Shown in pieces: positions 8,016 through 24,473 of a stretch of DNA of 64,000 nucleotides. The notes beneath the pieces are model-generated. The model made no database searches. It saw nothing but the letters and a program-made list of their open reading frames with translations, and had not been told where the DNA came from. This DNA comes from Taiwanofungus camphoratus (taxonomy: Eukaryota > Basidiomycota > Agaricomycetes > Polyporales > Taiwanofungaceae). Each line of letters starts with the position of its first letter. Within the stretch, counting starts at the first letter, position 1. Made by a program: the position numbers and the translations under genes. Location of the stretch: NCBI GenBank assembly GCA_003999685.1, contig CP021231.1, positions 868,001-932,000 of the forward strand. Direction: 5' to 3'.

Positions 8016-10082
8016 ATGCAGTGGGATGCCCAAAAATGGGGAATCCTACACCCATGCCAGTTTGGTGGGGCTATGCAGCATAGCACCACTGACGCTGGCA
8101 TTCAACTTGTGCACAATGTCAAAGAGGCATGGGCGCGAAACCTTATCCCATCGGTACTATTGCTCGATGTGTCCCAATTCTACCCGTCCATCAATCATGA
8201 TGCACTGGTAGGAATCATGCAAAAGCAGGGCTTCAATAGTAAGCTCTGTAATTTCATGGCAAATTACTTGATCGGGCGAAAAACCCGATTCTTGTTTAAC
8301 GGTACCCTGACTGATCCATCTGACTTTGATGTCGGAGTTGGTCAGGGTTCTAGTTTATCCCCAATTCTATCTGGGATTTATATTGCACCGGTTATACACA
8401 AGTGGGCGCCAGTCCATTTGATACAACCGGGCCAAACCGGGACTCAGTTCTATGTGGACGATGGTCTCATCATGGCGACTTCGCCGAAGGCTGTTGACGA
8501 CAGCCCGCAAGCCCTCATTTTGAAGAACAATGCCATTTTGGCGGATATCTTCCATAAACTCGTAGGCGACCTGAACCGTTTAGGTTTAGGCGTCGAAGGA
8601 GACAAGCTGGAGTTGATGCACTTCTGGAAGCGACAGAAGGGGTATTCGACGTCCCGACCCCTTGGTCCGGATCTAACCATCCGGACCGATGGACATGACG
8701 TCACTTTGCGAGCAAAGGACACAATGCGCTATCTTGGGTTCTTTTTAGACCCCAAGCTTAGCTTCCATGCACACGTACGGTTCTACGCCAACAAGGCGGC
8801 CAGCACGTGCAATGCACTCTGCATGCTCGGTAATTCGGCACGCGGATTCCATCCCATCAACAAGCGGCGGCTTTATATAGCGCACGTTGTTCCGTTGATG
8901 CTATATGGCGCTCAACTGTGGTGGAACCCACAGTGGAAGGGCCTCAAATGGGCTGCAAAAGAATTGCAGACCGCTCAGTCGAGAGCAGCCAGATGGATCA
9001 CCGACTGTTTCAAGACCACACCGATCGGGGCGATGGAAATGCTAGGTGGGCTGGTCCCCATCCGCATCCAGGTCGACCGGTACATGGAAAAAGCTGCGCT
9101 CAGAGCGCGGCGAGTTCATGAAGGGCACCCAATGAGGGCCGCTCTTCCACCATATTGGGCGACCAACGTCACCAATATCAATGCGCCATGGCCGCTTAAT
9201 TCGCGACGTGGCAAAAAACAGGCTGTCACCCCGATGACGTTCATAGATCGTATCGGGAGGCAGTCATCAGAAGACTTTGCACCACTCCACCCGGAGGCGC
9301 GGCCCGGTGACCGGGTCGTGGATCGGTACATTGATCGTTTCGAGCGGGTATTTTTGGACGGAAAAGGTCCAAACAAAAGCTCCCCTGAATTTGCTGACTG
9401 GTTGGAGTACACCTGGTGGCCGGAATTCCGGCGCCAGTTGGCCCAGCCAGAAGGGCGAATGTTATTCACTGATGGGTCGTACAAGAATACACCCACAGTA
9501 AGATCTGGTAGCGCGTGGCTCGTCATTGACGGGGAAGATCACGTTGCACATGGAAGATTCGGGGCCGGTAAGGTCCAGAGCTTCGATGCGGAGATGCTGG
9601 CATTGGCGCGCGGGCTGCGAGAAGCGGTCCGTGACGTCCCTGCCCACATCACCACCCTCACGATATGTTCCGATAACCAATCGGCACTTGACCGAATTTT
9701 CAAGCCGGAAGTCGGACCGTCACAGATGGCGGCGGTCATGGCTTCTCAACACGTCCGAGCGTTCCTCGATGCAGATGAACGCCGACGCATTGTCCTTTTA
9801 TGGGTTCCATCCCATAAAGGCATTTTTCAGAACGAGTTTGTTGATGAACTCGCGAAGAAAGCATTGGATGATCCCCAACCGGAATTCATCTCACAATCAA
9901 TGGCCCTTGCCCGCGTCAAGGCAAGGGTCAAAAAGCGCTGGGGGACACAAGTCGATAACCCCAGTTATCACGGTTGACGGTTATGGAAAGTAACCGAGGA
10001 CGCCTCACCGCTGCACGGGACTACGGCTAAGGGCACGTGGGTCTTGAAGACAGCTGGCAAGTCCAACAAGGAGGTGGCACGC
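8016..10082 (+). CDS. LINE polyprotein part 2: reverse transcriptase core and RNase H
   Basis: This continues the same frame after the TGA at 8013. RT palm motifs are LLDVSQFYPSINHDAL, the GQGSSLSPILSGIY turn and TQFYVDDGLIMAT with the catalytic YVDD. Thumb and connection follow. RNase H (about 9455-9880) keeps its acidic set: FTDGSYKN, SFDAEMLAL, CSDNQSALD and the WVPSHKGIFQNEFVDEL block. A second in-frame TGA lies at 9975-9977 (HG then RLWKVTED after it). The frame then stays open to 10082, where the LTR insertion begins, and resumes at 23934 as ARVCRVLTNHF once the duplicated ACGC is counted once. Confidence 0.88.
10079..10082 (+). repeat. 4-bp target duplication ACGC of the outer LTR insertion (left)
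   Basis: ACGC directly precedes the outer LTR terminus (TGATACGACC) and recurs at 23930-23933 directly after its other terminus (GACTCATCA). Counting it once restores the LINE reading frame exactly, so both boundaries are firm. Confidence 0.85.
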
Positions 10083-10951
10083 TGATACGACCTAGGGGAC
10101 CCTGGTACCTAGGGAGTGCTCCGCAACGTGGCTGTGGGGTAGTGTGATAACTGTAAGGGTGTGAGGGTAGGAGCTACAACCTGTATGATACCGGGAAACC
10201 TGTATGTCTTGTTTTTGTAAGTAGGGGAGTAAGGGGTCAAGGGTCCTGCACAACAGGATCTTGTTCCTAAGTGTTATACTGTCCCTAAGGCCTTGCGAGG
10301 CCCTCCGAAGTACGCGAAGTCCTTCAAGATTCTGCGAAGTCCTTCGAAGTTTTAGCTAAATCGCGCGAGCTGACTTCGTAGGCTGTATAGAGTTAGGGAG
10401 CAATAAGCCAATGGACTATAATTTCTACTAAGCGGCAGAGGGTACGAGACTGCTGCGAAGTCCTTTTAGCTAGAGTTAGCTAAAGGGTGTAAGGCTTAGA
10501 GGTTTGTTAGAGCGAGGTGGGCGAGGTTTGGCTGGTGTAGGAGACTTGTAGGAGAGGTCGGATGGTTCGGAGAGCTAATACTTGGAATAGGAATGAGGGA
10601 ACGAGGTTGCTGGAAGCTCTGAAGTGTCTGATGATGTCGAGGTGTGGGTCGGAGAGTTCGAGGGCGTAGAGAGATGTACTATAGCCTGTAATGAAGGCTA
10701 TGGGGGAGTCGTAGGGTTATTCGTAGGACGTAGGGATGACGCAACGTGAGCCTAAGGGTATAACTAAGGCGGAGGCCCACCGGATAGGTGCTATAAGAGG
10801 TGCTGAAGGGCACGAAGTCACGACGACTTCGTAGATCGTAGTGCGTAGTTCGGGAAGCGTAGACGTAGTTCGTAGATATATCGCGAGCGTAGACGTAGTT
10901 CAAAGGTACTGAAACGGAGCTGGGGTGGAGACTTAGGGACCTTGGGACCGT
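10083..10951 (-). repeat. Outer solo LTR, part 1 (reverse orientation)
   Basis: This is the reverse complement of the right-hand half of the LTR at 10952-12559, beginning TGATACGACCTAGG. It is clearly more diverged than the inner LTR pair and carries two extra blocks of about 70 and 90 bp that the inner LTRs lack (around 10385-10450 and 10560-10650). With 23029-23929 it makes one solo LTR of about 1.77 kb split by the younger insertion. No internal region of its own element is present, so it probably arose by LTR-LTR recombination. It is a fossil. Confidence 0.88.
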
Positions 10952-12559
10952 TGATGAGTCCCGTAGCCTCCTGGCCCCCGAATCGCGATTTTAGGAGCTT
11001 TCTAATCCCCCAACCGACCACTCTAAGACTCTCCTACAGCCTACGACAGGAGGGATAGGTTCCTATAATATTCCTAACGCCCCCTCTCCTTCCTAAACCC
11101 TCCTAACACCCTACGAAGTCTTGCGAAGTCACACGAGGTGCTACGAGATTTTGAATGCTAGACGCGAAGTCCCTAACTCCTGCTAAGTCCACTATCGGAC
11201 ACTGCCGGCCCTCCCATACTGTTCCATTGGATCTAGGTCCTATCTACTACGTCACTCATCCCGGGCTTAGCTAAGAAGTCTTAGCTAAGTCTCTCCTAGC
11301 TCTTGTGATTGCAGCTACCTCCGATAGGCTCCGAAACGGTCCGAAGTTCCGGAAGTTGGACTTAGGAAGCCTTGTGCACCCCCATGGGTCTCGATCCTAT
11401 GCCATAAGGTCATCCTAGGACGTACCCATATGACCCTCCACCCATTTAGGACACCTCCTGCCCCGATTAGGCCAAGTCCCGCTGCTAAGGACTTCGTGCG
11501 CTCTTAGCCCACTAAGATAGGTGATCACGGCGCATGGCTGCTCTCGGATAGTCATCCCGCCCTCGTGAATGAACTTGGTCACCTTTCTACCGTACATAGT
11601 TCCCCTGTTTCAGTTCCTAATTAGTTCCTATCCTCCTCGTGTTCACTTCGGAGTCCATGCGCTTTAGTACACATTTCGGACTCGTAAGGATCGCTTCGCG
11701 CAAGATTAGTTCACCTCACGTTCCCCTATTTAGTCAGAGGTAGTTTACTATGTACAAGGGAGACCCCTCAGTGCACGCTTCTCTCTTTGGAATACCAGTT
11801 CCCCTGTAGCTCCGATCTCAGGAAAGCGCCGCGAGTACAACCTTAGGAACGGTCCTAAGGTCCCTAAGTCTCCACCCCAGCTTCATTTCAGTACCTTTGA
11901 ACTACGTCTACGCTCGCGATATATCTACGAACCACGTCTACGCTTCCCGAACTACGCACTACGATCTACGAAAGTCACCGTGACTTCGCACCCTTCGGCA
12001 CCTCTTATAGCACCTATCCGGTGGGCCTCCGCCTTAGTTATACCCTTAGGCTCACGTTGCGTTATCCCTACGTCCTACGAATAGCCCTATGACTCGCCCA
12101 TAGCCTTAGTTACAGGCTATAGTACATCTCCCTACGCCCTCGAACTCTCCGACCTCTCCTACAGGTCTCCTACGCTAGCCAAACCTCGCCCACTTCGCTC
12201 TAACAAACTCCAAAACCTTACGCCCTTTAGCTAACTCTAACCAGAAGGACTTCGCAGCATCTACGAAGTCAGCTCGTGCGATTTAGCTAAAAACTTCGAA
12301 GGACTTCGCAGAATCTCGAAGGACTTCGCGTACTTCGGAGGGCCTCGCAAGGCCTTAGGGATAGTATAGCACTTAGGAACAAGATCCTGTTGTGCAGGAC
12401 CCTTGACCCCTTACTCCCCTACTTACAAAAACAAGACATACAGGTTTCCCGGTATCATACAGGTTGTAGCTCCTACCCTCACACCCTCACAGTTATCACA
12501 CTACCCCCAGCCACGTTGCGGAGCACTCCCTAGGTACCAGGGTCCCCTAGGTCGTATCA
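10952..12559 (+). repeat. 5' LTR
   Basis: This 1608-bp terminal repeat, TGATGAG...GTATCA, is virtually identical to 21421-23028. It is dense in short motifs such as GAAGTC, CTACGAA and TTAGCTAA, giving it strong compositional self-similarity. No clear TATA box was fixed. Confidence 0.93.
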
Positions 12560-12563
12560 TTTC

Positions 12564-12581
12564 TGGAGCCCACCGTGAGGG
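12564..12581 (+). other. Primer-binding-site candidate
   Basis: TGGAGCCCACCGTGAGGG starts 4 nt after the 5' LTR with the TGG that pairs with the CCA end of a tRNA. Position and first bases fit a minus-strand primer site; the tRNA species cannot be named by eye. Confidence 0.5.
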
Positions 12582-12599
12582 GGAGCAGTCAAGATTTCA

Positions 12600-15533
12600 T
12601 TGCCTTCAGATCATCCTACGTCTAACCAGTCCTCTCCGAGAAACAGCGATCAGTTACTATCCGAGTTCTTTCAGGTCGGCTATCGTTACTATACTCAAGC
12701 AGGCCTTCCACGAAGCACCTCTTCGCGAACACCTACGACTATCCCCTCCGATATCATTTCTACACTCGAATCTTCCGAATTGACCCCCGACTTTGAGGCT
12801 CTTTTCGAAGGGTCTCTAGACACGCTTACCACGTCCGAAGACTCACCAATTGAGGACTTCGAACCTCAGTCCACGTCCCCTGAGCTTCCTAACACCTCCG
12901 AAGGAAGCGGTCCTTCTTCAGCGTCTGACCCTATCTTAGTCCATTTACCGGCATCCCCTCAGCTATCCTCTACGCTCCCATCAGCTTCGCGTTCCCCTCC
13001 GATTCCTTCTATTACACTTTCCGACGCTTCTACGACCCAATCTTCTTCGGCTAGCATCAACTCAGCTTCGAACCCATCTCTGACCGCACCCATTTTAGCT
13101 AATCCCCTAAATCCTATTTCTGTGTCAACCATGAACGCACCTCCACTCATGCCGCCTCGAGGAGATCGTACATCCCCCACCTTCGATCCTGACCAGCCTA
13201 GGACCATCCGAAGGTATTTCCAGGACTTAGAGTCACTTTTTGTCCGCTGCCAGATAGCGGATGAGGCGACGAAGAAACACTGGACTACTCGCTACCCTCC
13301 TATCGATGTTTCGGACCTATGGGAGTCCCTCTCTGAGTGTTCCGATGTCACGAAGACCTACGAAGACTTCAAGAAGGAGATTAGAAGCCTCTACCCAGGC
13401 ACAGAGGATGATAGAATGTGGTCTATGTCCGACTTGGATCAGTTGATAGGAGAACGTGCTAGAATTGGAATCAACAATGCGGCAGACTTAGGAAGCTTCT
13501 ATCGTGAGTTTTATGCCATCACGAAGTACCTAATTTCGAAAAATAGGTTGTCTACTATCGAGCAAAGCCGTGCTTTCGCGAGGGCCTTCCAGCCTTCGCT
13601 ATGGGCTCGCGTGTCTACTAGGTTACAGCTAAAGTTCCCTGATCACTTACCCGATGATCCCTACACCTTGGACCAGCTACATAGCGCAGCAAAGTTCGTA
13701 CTCCTTGGTACTTCTACGACTCTTACCTCTGCTACGACTGTAACTACTTCGACCACTACCATGCCCGTGGGGGGCTCATCGCTAAAGATAGAGGATCTAC
13801 AGACGTTCGCAGAGATCCTCACGAAGTCCGTAACCAGTGCGCAAGCTCCTGTTCTTGCGAACCAGCGACCCTCTCGATTGGACAGCTCGCGCGGCGAGCA
13901 CACTCATGTAGAAGGCCAGTACTGTCACTATTGCGGGGACTTGGACTGCTGCACTAGGTGTTGCAAGCACATTGAGCAAGACATCAAGGATGGCAAGTGC
14001 AAGCACAACCCAGATGGAAAGATAGTGCTGCCAAATGGAAATTTCGTACCCAGAACGATCCCAGGACGTACGATTCGCGATAGGCTTTACGAATATCATC
14101 GACGAAATGGCACGAATTCCTCCCCCCAGCTCCTATTCGAAATCGACAATTGCCTAAATGTGCCCGCATTCTCACTATCCGCCGAGGATCGTATAGCCGC
14201 TTTAGAACACGAGATTTACCAACTTCGGAGACGTCGCGAAGTCTTCGATGGTGTGGAAGTACCCCAGCGCAGAAGGCAGGGTGCTCCTAACGCGCAGTCT
14301 GATCCTAGAAACCCACCCATAGCCAACGCACCTCCGATAGGACACGATCAGCATCCGGTAGTGGATCCCCCTGCTAACCAAGATGCCCCAGTGGCAGAGA
14401 CGCAGAACCAGACCCCTCCTACCATTCTAAGGCGATCCAATTATCCTTCTAATTCAGCGCCTTCGCCTCCGAAGCCTGCGAATGCGTCCGATCCGCCCAC
14501 GAACTCATCGGAGCATGCCTCGTCTACACCTAACGTACCAGCCCAACCAGCATCACAGGCAGCCATTCCACCGCCCGCTCCACCAGTACATCCTTTCGCT
14601 AATGCTCGAGATGCTACTTACGCACCTCCGAATCTTCGAAATTTCGCAGCAGCTCCGAAGCCTACAGCAGACAAAGGCAAGGACATGGCCTATAAGACGA
14701 TCACACCGGTTCATCAGGAGAAGCTTACAGAGGAAATATTCGCGCGATCTATGAGAACACCAGTGGTTACACTAACGCCCGAGGAGCTACTATCTATATC
14801 CCCGGATGTTCGTGCGCGATATCGCGAAGCTATCACCCCTAAACGTGTGCCTATGGATCCCAAGGCTACTCATATGGCTCAAATTACGGAACTCTCAGAC
14901 GATCTCGCTTCTAAAACGACGCTAGCAACCTCCGAACTATCGTGCCATGGTGAACCCCTTGTCCCTGGTTCGACCATCATTCCAGACCCCTACGAAACGT
15001 ACTTACGACACGTACCCGGAAAGGAAGAACCCTCCGAAATCATAGTAGCCCGCGACTCGAACTCTATCCGTTCTATCGAAGCCCTAATCGACAACAAAGA
15101 GCGAATCGAATGCATCGTGGACCCTGGGTCACAAGTGGTTGCGATGTCAGAGCAAGTCTGTCATGCCTTAGGGCTAATCTACGACCCTTCCGTGCAGCTA
15201 AATATGCAGTCTGCTAATGGCAGTATTGACCGTTCTTTAGGACTGGTTCGAAACGTCTCGTTCCAAGTAGGCGACATCGTGTTGTACCTACAGATGCACG
15301 TCATACGCAATCCCTCCTACGATATCCTTCTAGGCCGTCCCTTCGATGTGGTAACCGAGAGTGTGGTTAAGAACTTCGGAAACGAGGAGCAGACCATCAC
15401 GATCGTATGCCCGAACACGAGCGAAGTCGCGACCATCCCTACGATGCCTCGAGGACGTCAAAAGTTCTTACCAGCCCATCATCATAGTTGCCCCCACGCG
15501 AACTCTTCGAATCATTTGCGATCGGGTTTTTAG
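12600..15533 (+). CDS. Gag-protease ORF of the Ty3/gypsy element
   Basis: The frame is open for about 977 codons, but the first ATG is at 13131, starting MNAPPLMPPRGDRTSP, a typical beginning of basidiomycete gypsy Gag. The capsid-like part is followed by a cysteine-rich knuckle variant (CHYCGDLDCCTRC) and the conserved KCKHNPDGKIVLPNGNFVPR block near 13990-14060. A Pro/Ser-rich linker precedes an aspartic protease with the DPGS active site near 15122 and ILLGRPF. The frame overlaps the pol frame by 46 nt, the arrangement that family members use for frameshift expression. Confidence 0.85.
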   Translation: MPSDHPTSNQSSPRNSDQLLSEFFQVGYRYYTQAGLPRSTSSRTPTTIPSDIISTLESSELTPDFEALFEGSLDTLTTSEDSPIEDFEPQSTSPELPNTSEGSGPSSASDPILVHLPASPQLSSTLPSASRSPPIPSITLSDASTTQSSSASINSASNPSLTAPILANPLNPISVSTMNAPPLMPPRGDRTSPTFDPDQPRTIRRYFQDLESLFVRCQIADEATKKHWTTRYPPIDVSDLWESLSECSDVTKTYEDFKKEIRSLYPGTEDDRMWSMSDLDQLIGERARIGINNAADLGSFYREFYAITKYLISKNRLSTIEQSRAFARAFQPSLWARVSTRLQLKFPDHLPDDPYTLDQLHSAAKFVLLGTSTTLTSATTVTTSTTTMPVGGSSLKIEDLQTFAEILTKSVTSAQAPVLANQRPSRLDSSRGEHTHVEGQYCHYCGDLDCCTRCCKHIEQDIKDGKCKHNPDGKIVLPNGNFVPRTIPGRTIRDRLYEYHRRNGTNSSPQLLFEIDNCLNVPAFSLSAEDRIAALEHEIYQLRRRREVFDGVEVPQRRRQGAPNAQSDPRNPPIANAPPIGHDQHPVVDPPANQDAPVAETQNQTPPTILRRSNYPSNSAPSPPKPANASDPPTNSSEHASSTPNVPAQPASQAAIPPPAPPVHPFANARDATYAPPNLRNFAAAPKPTADKGKDMAYKTITPVHQEKLTEEIFARSMRTPVVTLTPEELLSISPDVRARYREAITPKRVPMDPKATHMAQITELSDDLASKTTLATSELSCHGEPLVPGSTIIPDPYETYLRHVPGKEEPSEIIVARDSNSIRSIEALIDNKERIECIVDPGSQVVAMSEQVCHALGLIYDPSVQLNMQSANGSIDRSLGLVRNVSFQVGDIVLYLQMHVIRNPSYDILLGRPFDVVTESVVKNFGNEEQTITIVCPNTSEVATIPTMPRGRQKFLPAHHHSCPHANSSNHLRSGF

Positions 15534-18500
15534 ACTTCGAGGATTTGAGAAATCAAGGAGAGGTCGCCCTGGTCATTGAGTATGAATCCGATACCCCTAA
15601 AATCGTGTCTTTCGCTGCTGTAAATGCAGCAGATAACAATTCTGTTCCTGCGCTCTATCTATCAGTCTCTAACTCTGTGTCTAGCTATCTGCAGTCTCTC
15701 TATTTTAGCGAAACTTCGAAAGTCTCGGAAGGTCCGGCTGATCATACTAGGTGGCTATCTGGCTTTCTAGCAGCAGCAACACCGCACGAGGCTCCCTTCC
15801 TTTCACACGATAATCCGAATTCTCTCCCTATGCTTTCGCTTTCCGCCTCTAAAGACATATCCTCTATCCCCATTCCAGGTCCCAGGAACGCTACGAAGGT
15901 CACGAAGTCAGCCCGAAGACCCTCCCTTGCTTCTAATCCGATGGTATCCCTTCCTAAGTTGTCAGATTCTTCCCCTATTCCTACATTTGCAGCATCGAAA
16001 AAGAAGTACAAGCCTGTAGCGCTGAAGACTCGCCCTATTCTGGGAGCTTTGGACGAACGATTCCGAATCATTCACGAAATTAAAGGCGACCCTTTAGCGA
16101 CGATGCCTACCCTATCACCGACTCCACCACCTTTCGAACCTACTTCGCGATATACGCAAGAACGGCACGATCTCACGGACAAGCTACACAGTGGAGACTT
16201 CCTACAACCAGCAGAGAGGGACCTACTACATCATTTTATGACCCTACACGCTGATGCGTTCGCTTGGAATGACTCCGAAAGGGGGTGCTTCAAGCCGGAG
16301 TACTTCCCTCCTATCGACTTTCCGGTAGTACCGCACACGCCATGGGTACAAAAGAACATTCCTATCCCACCCGGAATCTACAACGAAGTGTGCGCAATAA
16401 TCAAAAAGAAGATCGCAGCTAGGGTCTACGAACCTTCGAATTCTTCCTATCGTTCACGATGGTTTTGTGTGGTGAAGAAAGACGGAAAGTCCCTACGTCT
16501 TGTACATAGTCTGGAACCCCTAAACGCTGTCACGATTCAACACTCAGACGTTCCCCCGACTCCCGAACACCTCGCAGAACAGTTCGGAGGACGACCTTGT
16601 GGTGCTATGTTGGATCTATATGTAGGCTATGATGAACGCTTGATAGCGGAGACTTCGCGCGATCTTACGACATTTCAAACACCTTTCGGAGCTATGAGAT
16701 TGGTCACTCTACCTATGGGGTGGACCAACTCGGTCCCTATCTTCCACGACGATGTTACGCACATCCTACAGCCCGAAATTCCTCACCTAACGGTTCCCTA
16801 TATCGACGATGTTCCGGTCAAAGGCCCTGAAAGTTCGTACGATCTCGTACCTATTTCGGAGAACCCAGGCATTCGAAAGTTTGTTTGGGAACATTTTACG
16901 AACCTCAATAGGATAGTCACACGCATGCGCTATGCAGGAGGTACCTTTTCTGGAGTTAAAAGCATTCTAATTGCCCGCGAAATCACCGTTGTAGGGCATC
17001 GGTGTACTCCAGAAGGTCGCCTACCGGACGAGTCTCGTGTTGCAGCCATACGCAACTGGGGACCTTGTGCGACCCTATCTGACGTTCGAGCCTTTCTAGG
17101 AACCATTGGAGTGGTCCGTATCTTCATCCGAAACTTCGCACATCGTGCAGATGCCTTAGTACGCCTAACGCGAAAGGCGGTACCCTTCGAATTTGGTCCA
17201 GCGCAAATCGCAGCGCAGGAGGACCTTAAGGATGCTTTGCTGTCCTCTCCAGCTCTCCGATCCATTAACTATTCATCAGGTGCGCCCGTGATCTTAGCGG
17301 TTGACACCTCCTATATTGCAGTTGGCTATCACCTTTGCCAATGCGATGAGGACAACCCTAAAGTCCGATTCTACAATCGTTTCGGATCCATCACCCTAAA
17401 TGATCGCGAGCGGAGGTTCTCGCAACCGAAGTTAGAGATCTACGGATTGTTTCGAGCACTTCGCGTACTACGAATCTACCTAATCGGAGTTAGGAACCTT
17501 ATAGTGGAAGTGGACGCACGCTATATCAAAGGGATGTTGCAAAATCCGGACATCGCACCCAGCGCGAGCATAAATCGCTGGATCGTATCGATTCTAACAT
17601 TCCATTTCACCCTAGTACATGTACCAGGTACGATGCATGGACCAGATGGACTATCAAGACGAACCCCCCAGCCAGGAGATCAAGAAGAGAGCAGCGAAGA
17701 AGACTTCGAAGACTGGATAGACAAAATGCACTCGTTTCTACATCACATCCAAGCCCCCCCTTCCCATCCTATACCATCGATTTCGACCCTATTCCCTTAC
17801 GAATTCGCCTCTAACATTCCTATCACAACACCCACGCCTCCGATAGCTCCAACCTTCGCCTCCGAGTTGGCTGAGGACAGCCAAGGTTTCAATAGGGAGG
17901 AGGAGAGCTACGATAGCGTCCCAAGATCCGAAATGGCCAAGGAAGCTGACACAAGACTTGACTTAGTAGCAAAATTCCTACGAAGCCTCGCGAGACCTGC
18001 CAACCTATCGGATTCAGAATACGAAGGTTTCGTAAAATACTGTCTTCTATTCTTCCTCGATGAGGACATACTATGGCGCAAAGATCCACAAGGAGCTCAC
18101 AAACTAGTTGTAAAGCAGGCAGATCGTCTACGAATCCTCCGAGAATGTCACGATGCAGTCGCGCATCGAGGAATACACGCTACGAAGGTGCTGATTTCGG
18201 AGCGGTTTTGGTGGCCCTACCATCATATCGACATTGCCTGGTATGTTCGAAGCTGCCACCTATGCCAGATTCGCCAAGTGCGGCAGATCCTAATCCCTCC
18301 TACGGTCGCTACGCCCGCTCCGATCTTCGCAAAGGTTCATATAGATACCATGCATATGCCCCCTTCTAACGGATTTAGGTACTTGGTGCAAGGCCGGTGT
18401 TCTCTAACCCAGTACCCTGAATTTCGGATGCTTCGCAAGGAGACGGCTAAAGCTTTGGCAGAATGGCTCTTCGAAGACTTTGTTTGTAGGTGGGGTGCGC

Positions 18501-19342
18501 TATCGGAGATAGTCACGGACAACGGCGCTCCCTTCGTAAAAGCCACGAACTACATAGCGAAGAAGTACCAGCTACGACACATCCGAATTAGCGGATACAA
18601 TTCGCGTGCCAACGGACTGGTGGAGAGGCCTCACTTCGATGTTAGGCAGGCTCTATTCAAGGCCGTGGATGGCGAAGAGTCTAAATGGTCTCAGGCAACG
18701 TACTCAGTCTTCTGGTCCGAAAGGATCACGACTCGAAAGCGCATGGGATGTTCGCCCTATTTCGCGGTCACTGGCACCCACCCTGTTATCCCTTTGGACG
18801 TCGTAGAGGCCACCTATATCCTTCCTCCTCCGTCTTCTATGCTATCCACGACCGATCTTATCGCACGTCGAGCTATCGCATTGCAAAAGCGGGTGACTCA
18901 GATAGCGGAACTACATTCGAAGGTCTACGAAGCGCGAAGACAAGCTGCTCTGCGATTCGAAGAGAAGCATAAGCACTCCATCCACGATTTCAACTTCGAA
19001 AAGGGCGATTTAGTACTAATTCGCAACACACAGATAGAAAAGTCCCTAAATCGGAAGATGCGACCTCGCTACCTCGGCCCAGTACTCGTAGTATCTAGGA
19101 ACAAAGGTGGTGCTTATATCCTATGCGAATTGGATGGTTCGGTACTCGACAGGCCTACGGCAGCCTTCCGAGTCATCCCCTACTTAGCGCGAAAAGCCCT
19201 CGAACTTCCTACCGAACTCTTGGACGTGTCGACGGAGCGACTTCGCGAACTAGAGCTGACTACCACCCAAGGCGATGACGAAGAACTAGGATCGTATCCC
19301 TACTCTCCTAAGTCCGGCTCTAGTCCATCCGAAGCTCACTAA
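15488..19342 (+). CDS. Pol ORF: reverse transcriptase, RNase H, integrase
   Basis: The RT has LDLYVGYDERLI and VPYIDDVPVKG with the catalytic YIDD (about 16610-16820). RNase H follows (ILAVDTSYIAVGYHL, LEIYGLFRALR). Integrase begins with an HHCC zinc-binding region ending CHLCQ (about 18150-18270). Its DDE core shows VHIDTMHM, IVTDNGAPF and NGLVERPHF, and a C-terminal basic tail follows. The frame has no ATG near the overlap with gag-pro, as expected for fusion expression. A copy of the 3' polypurine block lies inside this frame between RNase H and integrase. Confidence 0.9.
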   Translation: MPPRELFESFAIGFLDFEDLRNQGEVALVIEYESDTPKIVSFAAVNAADNNSVPALYLSVSNSVSSYLQSLYFSETSKVSEGPADHTRWLSGFLAAATPHEAPFLSHDNPNSLPMLSLSASKDISSIPIPGPRNATKVTKSARRPSLASNPMVSLPKLSDSSPIPTFAASKKKYKPVALKTRPILGALDERFRIIHEIKGDPLATMPTLSPTPPPFEPTSRYTQERHDLTDKLHSGDFLQPAERDLLHHFMTLHADAFAWNDSERGCFKPEYFPPIDFPVVPHTPWVQKNIPIPPGIYNEVCAIIKKKIAARVYEPSNSSYRSRWFCVVKKDGKSLRLVHSLEPLNAVTIQHSDVPPTPEHLAEQFGGRPCGAMLDLYVGYDERLIAETSRDLTTFQTPFGAMRLVTLPMGWTNSVPIFHDDVTHILQPEIPHLTVPYIDDVPVKGPESSYDLVPISENPGIRKFVWEHFTNLNRIVTRMRYAGGTFSGVKSILIAREITVVGHRCTPEGRLPDESRVAAIRNWGPCATLSDVRAFLGTIGVVRIFIRNFAHRADALVRLTRKAVPFEFGPAQIAAQEDLKDALLSSPALRSINYSSGAPVILAVDTSYIAVGYHLCQCDEDNPKVRFYNRFGSITLNDRERRFSQPKLEIYGLFRALRVLRIYLIGVRNLIVEVDARYIKGMLQNPDIAPSASINRWIVSILTFHFTLVHVPGTMHGPDGLSRRTPQPGDQEESSEEDFEDWIDKMHSFLHHIQAPPSHPIPSISTLFPYEFASNIPITTPTPPIAPTFASELAEDSQGFNREEESYDSVPRSEMAKEADTRLDLVAKFLRSLARPANLSDSEYEGFVKYCLLFFLDEDILWRKDPQGAHKLVVKQADRLRILRECHDAVAHRGIHATKVLISERFWWPYHHIDIAWYVRSCHLCQIRQVRQILIPPTVATPAPIFAKVHIDTMHMPPSNGFRYLVQGRCSLTQYPEFRMLRKETAKALAEWLFEDFVCRWGALSEIVTDNGAPFVKATNYIAKKYQLRHIRISGYNSRANGLVERPHFDVRQALFKAVDGEESKWSQATYSVFWSERITTRKRMGCSPYFAVTGTHPVIPLDVVEATYILPPPSSMLSTTDLIARRAIALQKRVTQIAELHSKVYEARRQAALRFEEKHKHSIHDFNFEKGDLVLIRNTQIEKSLNRKMRPRYLGPVLVVSRNKGGAYILCELDGSVLDRPTAAFRVIPYLARKALELPTELLDVSTERLRELELTTTQGDDEELGSYPYSPKSGSSPSEAH
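17871..17903 (+). other. Internal copy of the polypurine tract within pol
   Basis: A 33-nt block here matches 21388-21420 (directly before the 3' LTR) at 30 positions, including the entire AATAGGGAGGAGG core. It lies in the pol frame between RNase H and integrase, the position of central polypurine tracts in some other retroelements. A second plus-strand priming site is inferred. Confidence 0.6.
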
Positions 19343-19874
19343 AGAATCAGAGGAGCAATCGACGATACCCCGACTTTAGCTAAGATTACGCTACGTCCAT
19401 TTTACTTTTCGCTTACCTTTTGGTCATGTTTTACTTTCCCCAACAAGCCCCCACTCAGTTTGACAGCTACGAAGTTCTGAATGTCTACGAATTTTTACTT
19501 ACAACATCTCCTACTTTTTACTATAGTGATTCAACTCACGAAGTCGCGATATCGTTCTAAAAAGCTCCTAAAACGCCGAGCAGAGCGAAGATTGCGCGAG
19601 GGGCCTTAAGCCCTTCAAGGCCATGATGATTTACTGAGCCTAAATGAGCGCATTTTATCCCCCTAAGTCTTCTAATTCTTCGCTGTGTTGTTTGGTTACT
19701 TCACACACTTAGGAACCTTTTCACAAGGACGACGTTTGCGTCCGCTTTATTCAGACTACTGTACACATATTGGAAAAGGTCCCTAGCAAAGGGACGCGCA
19801 ACGAGAGAGAATACAGCACGTTGGTGCGACAGATACGGAACGGGCGAGATGACGAACTACGAACCCCCCACCTT
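19343..19874. other. Non-coding stretch after pol
   Basis: This is AT-richer internal DNA of the LTR element between the pol stop and the end of the antisense gene. Only short unsupported frames are present; it probably holds 3' sequences of both transcription units. Confidence 0.4.
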
Positions 19875-21252
19875 CTAAACCTCGGCCTCGGCATCTTCCT
19901 CATCCTGCTCGGACTCACCAGAGGGACCAGGATCGGTAGAGGAGGCGGCGACGCGACGGCGAGGAAGGGGGAGAGAGCTCAAGTCGAGCGGCGCAGGCGT
20001 ACGACCGGTTAGGGCGGTTTCGGCACGATAGAGCCCCGAGATGTAGTCTTCGAGACGCATCGCACGACTCTCGGCCATCGCGCGGTCATACCAGAGGCCT
20101 TCGACAACGGCTTGATGCGCAGGGGTGAGGCCGTCCAAGTATTCAGCGCCGTTAAGGGCCAGCGAGGCCTCGAGCGACATCGTAGGCGCAGGGGTCGACT
20201 TCGCCTTCTTGGACTCGCGGGCGCGAGGCGGGGACACCTGAGGAGGTTGGCCCGCAGCTAGGGAACGTCCTAACATCAGCAATGTCGCGATAACGAGGGC
20301 ACGAGAAGCCCTACCACGCTTCGAAACGCGCACGCCGCGCTCCTTACCGTCTACGGAGAATCCGCCCCAATAACACCCCTGCGACTCTCGCAGGCACTTA
20401 CCACACTTCACGGCGCCCGCGGGGAGTTCGCACTCGAAGTCTGCGGTGTAGGTGCTGCAGCGATCGCACTAGGTAGCAATGATAAGCCGCGAACAGTCAC
20501 GAAAAGGACGTGCACTCACCTTCGCATGAGTTCGCCTATGCTCCGCCGCCTTCGCCATGTTAGCCAGGGCTTCGGGCGTCGGAGGAGCCTTTGCCTTCGC
20601 AGCATCCTTCCCCTGAGTAGGAGGGACCCCTACGAAGACACCCGAACTCGTGGACGAGGCGAGCTCGCCAACTTGGCCGCTAGAAACGGAGGCCATGATC
20701 GAGCTGGCCTGGGAAGCCGCGCGAGTAGAAGCCGCTGCCTTGGCCCGAGCTGAGGGACGACGAGTACGCGAGGAGGTACGACTAGGAGCCGGCGAAGGAG
20801 CAGAAGACGAAGCCGCAAGTTGGGCAGCACGTTCAAGTGCAGCGCGCTCGACCGCCTCCACACGAAGTTGTTCGGTCGCACGGGCGAGTTCGCGCTGTGC
20901 GTCTCGCTCTTGAAGCATAGCAGCGAACTGAGGAAAGCCGGTGCGAGCCCACGAGATCCACGACGAGTCCGCGAGAGGGAGGATCGCCGTCAAACCTTCG
21001 ACGATGGCGGCCTCTAAGGTAGGATCGGCGGGAGCGTTCGAAGCCTGGGACAGGACCCGCCAGTTACCCTATAACGCAGTGAAGACGATGTATCGAGCGA
21101 TCGAGGAGGGTACGTACCACACGACGTCCTAAGTTCCTCGCCCACCGCAGGTAATCTTCGGCCTCCGCTACGCCCTCCGGACGAGAATCGAGGAGCGCCA
21201 GGACATCGCTGTGAGCCAGGCCAACACCATCAGAGTCCATATCGTCGAACAT
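19875..21252 (-). CDS. Antisense gene of the LTR element, six-cysteine cluster protein
   Basis: This gene runs opposite to gag-pol, between pol and the 3' LTR. A start at 21252 (MFDDMDSDG) and two introns with good sites fit one frame: GTACGT...TATAG (about 21072-21119) and GTGAGT...CCTAG (20469-20519), giving about 425 residues. Exon 2 carries a helical, Ala/Glu/Arg-rich region (around LARATEQLRVEAVERAALER). Directly after the second intron comes a C-x2-C-x8-C-x8-C-x2-C-x6-C array, starting CDRCSTY and ending SQGCYWGG, similar in spacing to fungal binuclear zinc clusters. A basic patch follows, then an acidic C-terminus. Function is unknown; nucleic-acid binding is only an inference. Its introns lie on the strand opposite the genomic RNA, so they would survive retrotransposition. 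Confidence 0.6.
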
Positions 21253-21410
21253 GATGGGGAAGGGAAAGGCAAAAGGGGAGAAAGGAGAAAAAGATAAGAG
21301 GCACCCACAATTAGCTTCTATCAGGATATCGCCCGCTTCACAGATCGGACGCGATAGGCTACAAGTTCCCACGGTCGCGCACACTGACTGAGGACAGTCA
21401 GGATTTCAAT

Positions 21411-21420
21411 AGGGAGGAGG
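21411..21420 (+). other. 3' polypurine tract
   Basis: AGGGAGGAGG abuts the 3' LTR (21421). This is the standard primer site for plus-strand DNA synthesis in LTR elements. Confidence 0.8.
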
Positions 21421-23028
21421 TGATGAGTCCCGTAGCCTCCTGGCCCCCGAATCGCGATTTTAGGAGCTTTCTAATCCCCCAACCGACCACTCTAAGACTC
21501 TCCTACAGCCTACGACAGGAGGGATAGGTTCCTATAATATTCCTAACGCCCCCTCTCCTTCCTAAACCCTCCTAACACCCTACGAAGTCTTGCGAAGTCA
21601 CACGAGGTGCTACGAGATTTTGAATGCTAGACGCGAAGTCCCTAACTCCTGCTAAGTCCACTATCGGACACTGCCGGCCCTCCCATACTGTTCCATTGGA
21701 TCTAGGTCCTATCTACTACGTCACTCATCCCGGGCTTAGCTAAGAAGTCTTAGCTAAGTCTCTCCTAGCTCTTGTGATTGCAGCTACCTCCGATAGGCTC
21801 CGAAACGGTCCGAAGTTCCGGAAGTTGGACTTAGGAAGCCTTGTGCACCCCCATGGGTCTCGATCCTATGCCATAAGGTCATCCTAGGACGTACCCATAT
21901 GACCCTCCACCCATTTAGGACACCTCCTGCCCCGATTAGGCCAAGTCCCGCTGCTAAGGACTTCGTGCGCTCTTAGCCCACTAAGATAGGTGATCACGGC
22001 GCATGGCTGCTCTCGGATAGTCATCCCGCCCTCGTGAATGAACTTGGTCACCTTTCTACCGTACGTAGTTCCCCTGTTTCAGTTCCTAATTAGTTCCTAT
22101 CCTCCTCGTGTTCACTTCGGAGTCCATGCGCTTTAGTACACATTTCGGACTCGTAAGGATCGCTTCGCGCAAGATTAGTTCACCTCACGCTCCCCTATTT
22201 AGTCAGAGGTAGTTTACTATGTACAAGGGAGACCCCTCAGTGCACGCTTCTCTCTTTGGAATACCAGTTCCCCTGTAGCTCCGATCTCAGGAAAGCGCCG
22301 CGAGTACAACCTTAGGAACGGTCCTAAGGTCCCTAAGTCTCCACCCCAGCTTCATTTCAGTACCTTTGAACTACGTCTACGCTCGCGATATATCTACGAA
22401 CCACGTCTACGCTTCCCGAACTACGCACTACGATCTACGAAAGTCACCGTGACTTCGCACCCTTCGGCACCTCTTATAGCACCTATCCGGTGGGCCTCCG
22501 CCTTAGTTATACCCTTAGGCTCACGTTGCGTTATCCCTACGTCCTACGAATAGCCCTATGACTCGCCCATAGCCTTAGTTACAGGCTATAGTACATCTCC
22601 CTACGCCCTCGAACTCTCCGACCTCTCCTACAGGTCTCCTACGCTAGCCAAACCTCGCCCACTTCGCTCTAACAAACTCCAAAACCTTACGCCCTTTAGC
22701 TAACTCTAACCAGAAGGACTTCGCAGCATCTACGAAGTCAGCTCGTGCGATTTAGCTAAAAACTTCGAAGGACTTCGCAGAATCTCGAAGGACTTCGCGT
22801 ACTTCGGAGGGCCTCGCAAGGCCTTAGGGATAGTATAGCACTTAGGAACAAGATCCTGTTGTGCAGGACCCTTGACCCCTTACTCCCCTACTTACAAAAA
22901 CAAGACATACAGGTTTCCCGGTATCATACAGGTTGTAGCTCCTACCCTCACACCCTCACAGTTATCACACTACCCCCAGCCACGTTGCGGAGCACTCCCT
23001 AGGTACCAGGGTCCCCTAGGTCGTATCA
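21421..23028 (+). repeat. 3' LTR
   Basis: This 1608-bp repeat is the same length as the 5' LTR and nearly identical, with two differences seen by eye, both transitions. It is followed by the CCGT target duplication. Confidence 0.93.
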
Positions 23029-23929
23029 CCGTTCCTAAGGTTGTACTCGCGGCGCTTTCCTGAGATCGGAGCTACAGGGGAACTGGTATTCCAAAGAGAG
23101 AAGCGTACACTGAGGGGTCTCTGTTGTACATAGTAAACTACCTCTGACTAAATAGGGGAGCGTGAGGTGAACTAATCTTGCGCGAAGTGATCCTTACGAG
23201 TCCGAAATGTGTACTAAAACGCATGGACTCCGAAGTGAACACGAGGGGGATAGGAACTATTTAGGAACTGAAACAGGGGAACTACGAACGGTAGAAAGGT
23301 GACAAACTTCATTCACGAGGGCGGGATGACTATCCGAGAGCAGCCATGCGCCGTGATCACCTATCTTAGCGGGCTAAGAGCGCACGAAGTTCTTAGCAGC
23401 GGGACTTGGCCTAATCGGGGCAGGAGGTGTCCTAACTGGGTGGAGGGCCATATGGGTACGCCCTAGGATGACCTTATGGCATAGGATCGAGACCCATGGG
23501 GGTGCACAAGGCTTCCTAAGTCCAACTTCCGGAACTTCGGACCGTTTCGGAGCCTATTGGAGGTAACTGCAATCACAAGAGCTAGGAGAGACTTAGCTAA
23601 GACTTCTTAGCTAAGCCCGGGATGAGTGACGTAGTAGATAGGACCTAGATCCAATGGAACAGTATGGGAGGGCCGGCAGTGTCCGATAGTGGACTTAGCA
23701 GGAGTTAGGGACTTCGCGTCTAGCATTCGAAATCTCGTAGCACCTCGTGTGACTTCGCAAGACTTCGTAGGGTGTTAGGAGGGTTTAGGAAGAAGAGGGG
23801 GCGTTAGGAATATTATAGGAACCTATCCCTCCTGTCGTAGGCTGTAGGAGAGTCTTAGAGTGGTCGGTTGGGGGATCAGAAAGCTCCTAAAATCGCGATT
23901 CGGGGCCCAGGAGGCTACGGGACTCATCA
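23029..23929 (-). repeat. Outer solo LTR, part 2 (reverse orientation)
   Basis: This is the reverse complement of the left half of the LTR (matching about 10952-11855), ending GACTCATCA at 23929 and followed by the ACGC duplication. It is the other part of the older, interrupted solo LTR described at 10083-10951. Confidence 0.88.
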
Positions 23930-23933
23930 ACGC

Positions 23934-24473
23934 GTATGTCGCGTGCTTACCAACCATTTCCCTGGCGGTGAATACCGCTCTCGGTTCAATATCCCTGGCC
24001 CTCACCTCTGCTTATGCGGAGCGGAGGAAACCAGGGAACACGTGCTCTTTGACTGTCCATTCTGGATCAGGACGAAGCGCCAACAGGGTCCTCGTGATCC
24101 GCTTCTGATGGGGCCCCCTGAACAAAGGGGATGGACCCCGGATGACATCATGGAGTTCCTTCGGCTCAACCCGATGGTCTCCACATTCGATTGGGCAGAG
24201 ATTCTGGCAGAATCTCTGCTCGAAGCTGAAGCTGCGCGCACGAGAACGTTCACTCGTGCACGTCTTATGTGCCACACTGTCGGAAGACAAGCGGCCTGGC
24301 AGCGGTTCCATGCGGACCGACATTTAGATCCTGGTATGACCACCGCCCTGGGTGAAAAGTACCGGGATTTCAGTGAGTGGTACGACGCCGAGGCAAAGGC
24401 GTTCGAAATGTACCATAACTGGATAGACGAGGGGATAGCGGAACCCAGTATCCGCGGCGACCCTCCCGTCTAA
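23934..24473 (+). CDS. LINE polyprotein part 3: C-terminal zinc-knuckle segment
   Basis: This resumes the LINE frame after the inserted LTR material. It contains the C-x-C ... H-x4-C knuckle within CLCGAEETREHVLFDC, the usual end of Tad1/Jockey-group polyproteins, and a long helical tail ending in DPPV before the stop at 24471-24473. The segment has no further break. Confidence 0.85.
   Translation, partial: VCRVLTNHFPGGEYRSRFNIPGPHLCLCGAEETREHVLFDCPFWIRTKRQQGPRDPLLMGPPEQRGWTPDDIMEFLRLNPMVSTFDWAEILAESLLEAEAARTRTFTRARLMCHTVGRQAAWQRFHADRHLDPGMTTALGEKYRDFSEWYDAEAKAFEMYHNWIDEGIAEPSIRGDPPV

Follow-up and report, generated by a model that had tools for sequence, protein, structure and literature searches.

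Genes on the strand opposite gag-pol have been described in several LTR elements. Among plant Ty3/gypsy elements, antisense frames classed as aORF-3R are present in maize Grande (gene23), rice RIRE2 and Silene Retand (TRP28 domain); the Grande gene has its own promoter and encodes a nuclear protein, and the role of antisense extra genes in LTR elements is still regarded as open, according to the parts of the two publications consulted here (PMC7264820, PMC11963269). In fungi, the Ty3 element Boty of Botrytis cinerea carries an additional antisense gene, brtn (Zhao et al. 2011, as described in papers citing it). The HBZ protein of HTLV-1 is described as nuclear in the part of PMC11963269 consulted.

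In the window, that is, the whole 64-kb stretch of Taiwanofungus camphoratus DNA analysed here, at C12:868001–932000, a Ty3/gypsy element carries an open frame of the aORF-3R kind. Like the plant frames, as these are presented in the consulted parts of the two publications, it is antisense to gag-pol, lies between pol and the 3′ LTR and is present in most copies of its family (104 of 116 scored integrase matches). Unlike the Retand proteins, its homologues lack a TRP28 match (PF04195, three homologues, E≤5). It has three conserved introns, whereas the word 'intron' is absent from the main text of PMC7264820 and PMC11963269, and the cysteine module and the intact stand-alone paralogue described below are unmentioned for plant aORF-3R in the consulted parts of these publications. 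Like brtn in Boty, as this is described in citing papers, it is an extra antisense gene in a fungal Ty3 element. The antisense transcripts that arise from the 3′ LTR of HTLV-1 are reportedly spliced (Cavanagh et al. 2006), and the window gene would resemble HBZ in giving a spliced antisense product from the 3′ LTR; it differs from HBZ in that its three introns split a single coding frame and in that bZIP is not among the Pfam families matched by its homologues, and we know of no homology between the two.

A literature search covering the titles and the beginnings of abstracts of open-licence papers returned, among the matches listed, no fungal Ty3 element with an antisense gene of several introns and no host paralogue of such a gene. 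Antisense extra frames as such are already known from plant Ty3 elements and Boty; what appears to be new is a multi-intron, selected one with a very probable host paralogue.

The element and its antisense gene

The host element is young and spans positions 10952–23028. Its 5′ LTR (TG...CA, 10952–12559) and 3′ LTR (21421–23028), both on the plus strand and 1608 bp long, differ at 2 of 1608 positions; a 4-bp target duplication, CCGT, flanks the element, and the polypurine tract AGGGAGGAGG (21411–21420, plus strand) abuts the 3′ LTR, both features being read by eye. The plus strand encodes gag with an aspartyl protease in one open frame (12579–15533; PF13650/PF13975 at residues 835–922) and pol, with reverse transcriptase (RT), RNase H and integrase, in another (15488–19342; PF17917/PF17919 and PF17921). 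The paired LTRs, the target duplication, the polypurine tract and the protease, RNase H and integrase, in this order, place the element in Ty3/gypsy. The Pfam matches of pol at E≤1 include RNase H and the integrase zinc domain and lack RVT_1 and the integrase core; RT is therefore assigned by its position and by a YIDD motif, which we take to be an RT mark, and the RT of this family seems to have diverged. An older LTR of the same family, in inverted orientation, surrounds the element (10076–10951 and 23029–23932). Beside it, an open frame at 23859–24473 contains CLCGAEETREHVLFDC, which we take to resemble the C-terminal end of a LINE, and an A-rich run follows some hundred bases downstream; together they may mark where a non-LTR element terminates on its 3′ side.

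The antisense gene is intact on the minus strand between pol and the 3′ LTR, where the initial annotation had placed it, from an ATG at 21252 to a TAG stop at 19877–19875. That annotation had described a gene of about 425 codons with two well-formed introns. Both introns stand and join their exons in frame, but a third is also present, and the predicted product is shorter, 398 aa with three introns removed (417 aa with two). Exon 1 (21118–21252) is followed by intron 1 (21045–21117; 73 nt, phase 0, GTACGT..CCCAG), by exon 2 (20520–21044), which encodes the end of the N-terminal domain and a coiled-coil-like and low-complexity stretch, by intron 2 (20469–20519; 51 nt, phase 0, GTGAGT..CCTAG), by exon 3 (20315–20468) with the six-cysteine module, by intron 3 (20258–20314; 57 nt, phase 1, GTAGGG..CCCTAG) and by exon 4 (19875–20257), with a basic stretch, a helix-like stretch and an acidic tail. 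Introns 1 and 2 both fall between codons. All six cysteines of the product lie within the module, C-x2-C-x8-C-x8-C-x2-C-x6-C, which, as had been noted, begins exactly at an exon border, with the first codon after intron 2.

Intron 3 had been overlooked because its length, 57 nt, is divisible by three and it contains no stop. We favour the three-intron model because two diverged relatives (L031 and L032, see below) have an intron of equal phase at the homologous place, and because intron 3 varies like introns 1 and 2; the two-intron model was rejected on these grounds. Across 50 copies of the gene, intron 3 carries 579 variants per kb, introns 1 and 2 carry 562 and 569 and the exons 353–455; read as codons, it has no synonymous excess (w 1.16). 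Intron 3 thus evolves as non-coding DNA. Splicing of the gene is a prediction drawn from the sequence.

The spliced frame contains no stops, whereas the alternative frames of the spliced sequence contain 9 and 13, and none of 2000 base shuffles of the coding sequence remained open. The exact cysteine motif occurs once in the six-frame translation of the window and in none of 20000 shuffles of the protein. An AATAAA on the minus strand (19746–19751), 123 nt past the stop, is a possible poly(A) signal by sequence match only; the same scan found none within 400 nt in L031. Immediately before the ATG, the pyrimidine-rich minus strand of 21253–21300 may serve as a leader. Read on the plus strand, this segment is a second purine-rich tract some 110 bases upstream of the polypurine tract at the LTR.

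When the alignment is inspected by eye, the protein starts with a helical-looking N-terminus, continues with a coiled-coil-like middle, the cysteine module and a basic stretch of nuclear-localisation-like appearance, and ends in an acidic tail; this make-up suggests a nuclear nucleic-acid or chromatin partner. Pfam gave no match at its cut-off for three full-length homologues or for their cysteine modules. The best module match, zf-FPG_IleRS for L032 (E 0.0018, 18.5 bits against 21.3, over 14 residues only), would fit zinc binding, if weakly, and the module probably binds zinc. A PDB search with the module profile found no relative, returning one chance match at E 2, and a single-sequence fold of the exon 3–4 frame, read through intron 3 (197 aa), was unusable (pLDDT 44). 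In fungal Zn2Cys6 clusters (PF00172), the second and third cysteines are six residues apart. The product had been called zinc-cluster-like, and the resemblance holds for the six cysteines, arranged as C-x2-C...C...C-x2-C-x6-C, and for the basic stretches in the protein. It does not extend to the spacing between the second and third cysteines, which is 8 in the window gene, L031 and L032, and PF00172 gave no match at E≤10 (the search filters drop most matches above 0.1). Membership of the Zn2Cys6 family was therefore rejected.

Conservation, placement and selection among copies

Searching the exon 3–4 frame against its own genome (33.2 Mb, 15 contigs) gave at least 112 matches, one locus (C1:214 kb) being counted twice. 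Of the 112, 68 were at ≥72% identity; the split used assigned four pieces that were shorter or weaker to the diverged matches. We read 50 of the 68, comprising the best 30 by exon-3 score, a biased choice that includes the window's own copy (L002), and 20 of the 38 lower ones, chosen across 80–97% identity. The first 30 needed no indel in alignment, and the alignment of the 20 added copies dropped insertions relative to the window.

All 50 copies, the window included, keep the six cysteines, and 49 keep the ATG. GT/AG dinucleotides are retained in 48 copies at intron 1, in 50 at intron 2 and in 48 at intron 3, and the intron sequence is gap-free in every copy. No stop interrupts the gene in 45 copies, and four share a 15-nt in-frame gap. 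The cysteines are thus conserved among family copies, and the expectation that introns on the antisense strand are inherited through retrotransposition is borne out.

Gene matches were paired with integrase matches, 116 of 356 integrase candidates being scored. An integrase lies within 4 kb of 102 of the 112 gene matches and none is nearby for the other 10. In 99 of these 102 cases it lies 3′ of the gene on the opposite strand, and in three it is on the same strand, which supports antisense placement within this genome. From the integrase side, an exon-3 match within 4 kb is missing for 12 of the 116 scored matches; the gene may be absent from some copies or sub-lineages, or be too decayed there.

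Other features of the copies concern the history of the elements. At C10:627926–659921, four exon-3 copies and their matching integrase copies are spaced 10468–10469 bp apart, a spacing that agrees to one base with the LTR-to-LTR period of the window element, and this region seems to be a head-to-tail tandem array sharing LTRs. TGA accounts for most of the stops in older pol copies, as CpG-to-TpG decay would produce, which suggests DNA methylation of the elements. Among the first 30 copies (L001–L030), divergence of the antisense gene from the window copy does not follow that of pol or the LTR (L013 has 35 differences in the antisense gene and 3 in the pol end), which suggests mosaic copies generated by template switching.

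For the analysis of selection, each variant was classed relative to the window copy, and the null expectation came from placing variants at random within matching trinucleotide contexts; the counts are of copies rather than events, and some copies are near-duplicates, as in the C10 array. Variants present in at least five of the 50 copies comprised 68 synonymous, 22 missense and 1 stop, compared with 35.9, 52.7 and 2.4 expected (w 0.22), the excess of synonymous change that purifying selection on a working protein would leave. For variants in 2–4 copies w was 0.60, and for those in a single copy 0.71; this relation of w to sharing is predicted if the gene is inherited through working copies and decays once inserted. 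By exon, for variants in at least 2 of the 50 copies, w was 0.63 in exon 1 (P 0.10) and 0.48, 0.45 and 0.61 in exons 2, 3 and 4 (P≤0.009). In the first 30 copies, exons 1 and 2, which played no part in ranking the loci, gave w of 0.15–0.26 for shared variants. The exon 3–4 frame including intron 3 gave 0.41–0.46, the value for variants in at least three of the 30 copies (w 0.46, P 0.086) being not significant.

The whole spliced frame, with intron 3 treated as coding, had a w of 0.28 for variants in at least 2 of these 30 copies, compared with 1.8 and 2.7 in the alternative frames of the spliced sequence. The 0.42 of one plus-strand frame, whose third positions coincide with those of the gene, is a mirror effect, and this frame has 13 stops. 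In the controls, from which L011 was left out as its pol side is not alignable, the 3′ end of pol gave a w of 0.16 for variants shared by at least 2 copies (29 of the 30 loci), and the spacer between pol and the gene showed no significant synonymous excess (w 0.68–2.23 across the six frames at three cut-offs, P never below 0.136, 29 copies). The selection signal of the antisense gene is comparable with that of pol and somewhat weaker (0.28 vs 0.16). That the element carries an antisense accessory gene which is under selection and apparently spliced is, in our view, nearly certain.

Relatives inside and outside the elements

Beyond the window family (F1), we read five loci of a second family, F2 (L032–L036), of which L032 is intact. 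The F2 protein has 386 aa, the same cysteine spacing and four introns, three of them at homologous places with phases 0, 0 and 1; the extra intron is located in exon 2 of L032. Between F1 and F2, the antisense proteins are 24% identical (dN 1.16, dS 1.5, rough at such distances) and the pol proteins 80% identical over 998 codons (dN 0.147, dS 5.3, saturated and rough). The high dN of the antisense protein between families, 1.16 against 0.147 for pol, would equally suit a role in host interaction or an arms race. A third, decayed family is represented by L037, L038 and L046.

L031 (C3:1164 kb) is an intact gene of 385 aa with the same three introns and phases as F1, its third intron being a would-be GC-AG one; it is 39% identical to F1 (dN 0.63, dS 2.2). 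The 13.5 kb around it showed no similarity to the pol, gag or other DNA of the window and no internal repeat pair, and its neighbours, read by eye, resemble a urea transporter and an FG-repeat nucleoporin. The short introns and the nucleoporin-like neighbour would suit a fungus, probably a basidiomycete. A functionless gene at such a synonymous distance would be expected to hold stops, which makes it very probable that L031 works as a gene of the host. Six further search-derived places without nearby integrase or exon-3 matches (L042–L047), part of all such places, were considered as stand-alone copies and rejected, being decayed or fragmentary copies of element families; among the places read, only L031 is both stand-alone and intact. 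A search of IMG/VR confirmed no relatives.

Possible roles and origin of the gene

Our main reading, to which we give a probability of about 0.55, is that the gene is a functional accessory gene on the strand opposite gag-pol and that its protein is a nuclear accessory regulator of the element's expression or replication. It draws on the analogy with Grande gene23, nuclear and with its own promoter, and with HBZ, as these are described in the consulted parts of the sources. An antisense transcript would start in or just inside the 3′ LTR (21421–23028), the candidate source of an antisense promoter, would lose its three short introns in vivo and would end near the AATAAA at 19751–19746. It would encode the 398-aa protein, with an N-terminal helical domain, the coiled-coil-like middle, the six-cysteine module, the basic stretch and the acidic tail. 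The introns would be copied intact into each new insertion, because they run backwards in the sense RNA that is reverse-transcribed, and the protein may act in the nucleus on the expression or replication of the element.

A captured host gene is a possible, if doubtful, alternative. An L031-like gene would have entered the element in antisense orientation, by read-through or recombination, so that its introns were not spliced out, and would have been kept for a cellular job or a host modification that benefits the element, rather than for control of the element. The intactness of L031, its identical introns and phases and its 13.5-kb surroundings, free of window-like DNA and of internal repeat pairs, would fit such a history. 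Against it, L031 has no Pfam match and thus no cellular job to name, the comparison of its surroundings covered window DNA and internal repeats, and the comparison of F1, F2 and L031 is an unrooted one that sets no direction of transfer.

It is improbable that the protein is a structural or replication accessory that works in particles instead of the nucleus, its cysteine module binding nucleic acid there as an additional nucleocapsid or chaperone would. A small cysteine module beside basic stretches and the clear selection on shared variants would suit this role, but gag is a separate frame with a Cys-rich stretch of its own, and an intron-bearing antisense layout would be an odd route to a particle protein. 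Still less plausible is a role for the antisense RNA itself, with the protein incidental, through double-stranded RNA formed with the genomic RNA and small-RNA silencing, or through transcription interference. Non-coding antisense transcripts are reported for some elements in the consulted part of PMC7264820, but an RNA-only role would leave codons unspared, whereas the synonymous excess, the mostly intact frames, the intron-specific drift and the conserved cysteine module reveal selection on the protein. A functionless chance frame or decaying passenger fragment, for which the lack of a Pfam match above cut-off might speak, is refuted by the synonymous excess and the intron conservation across families, together with the integrity of the copies, the antisense placement and the shuffle tests.

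In the nuclear accessory gene that we favour, the three introns are on the non-genomic strand and can for that reason be maintained. A more speculative reading, less likely than not, is that the host and an LTR retrotransposon exchanged an intron-containing gene by way of this back strand, L031 being a domesticated or ancestral partner that may act in trans, for example as a cysteine-module competitor limiting the element. If this were true, antisense placement would allow a cellular gene with several introns to be carried by a retroelement without losing any of them. A selected antisense gene and an intact relative outside the elements, in one 33-Mb genome, make a natural system for the study of antisense-gene function, and the same system allows us to ask whether hosts take over the antisense genes of retroelements.
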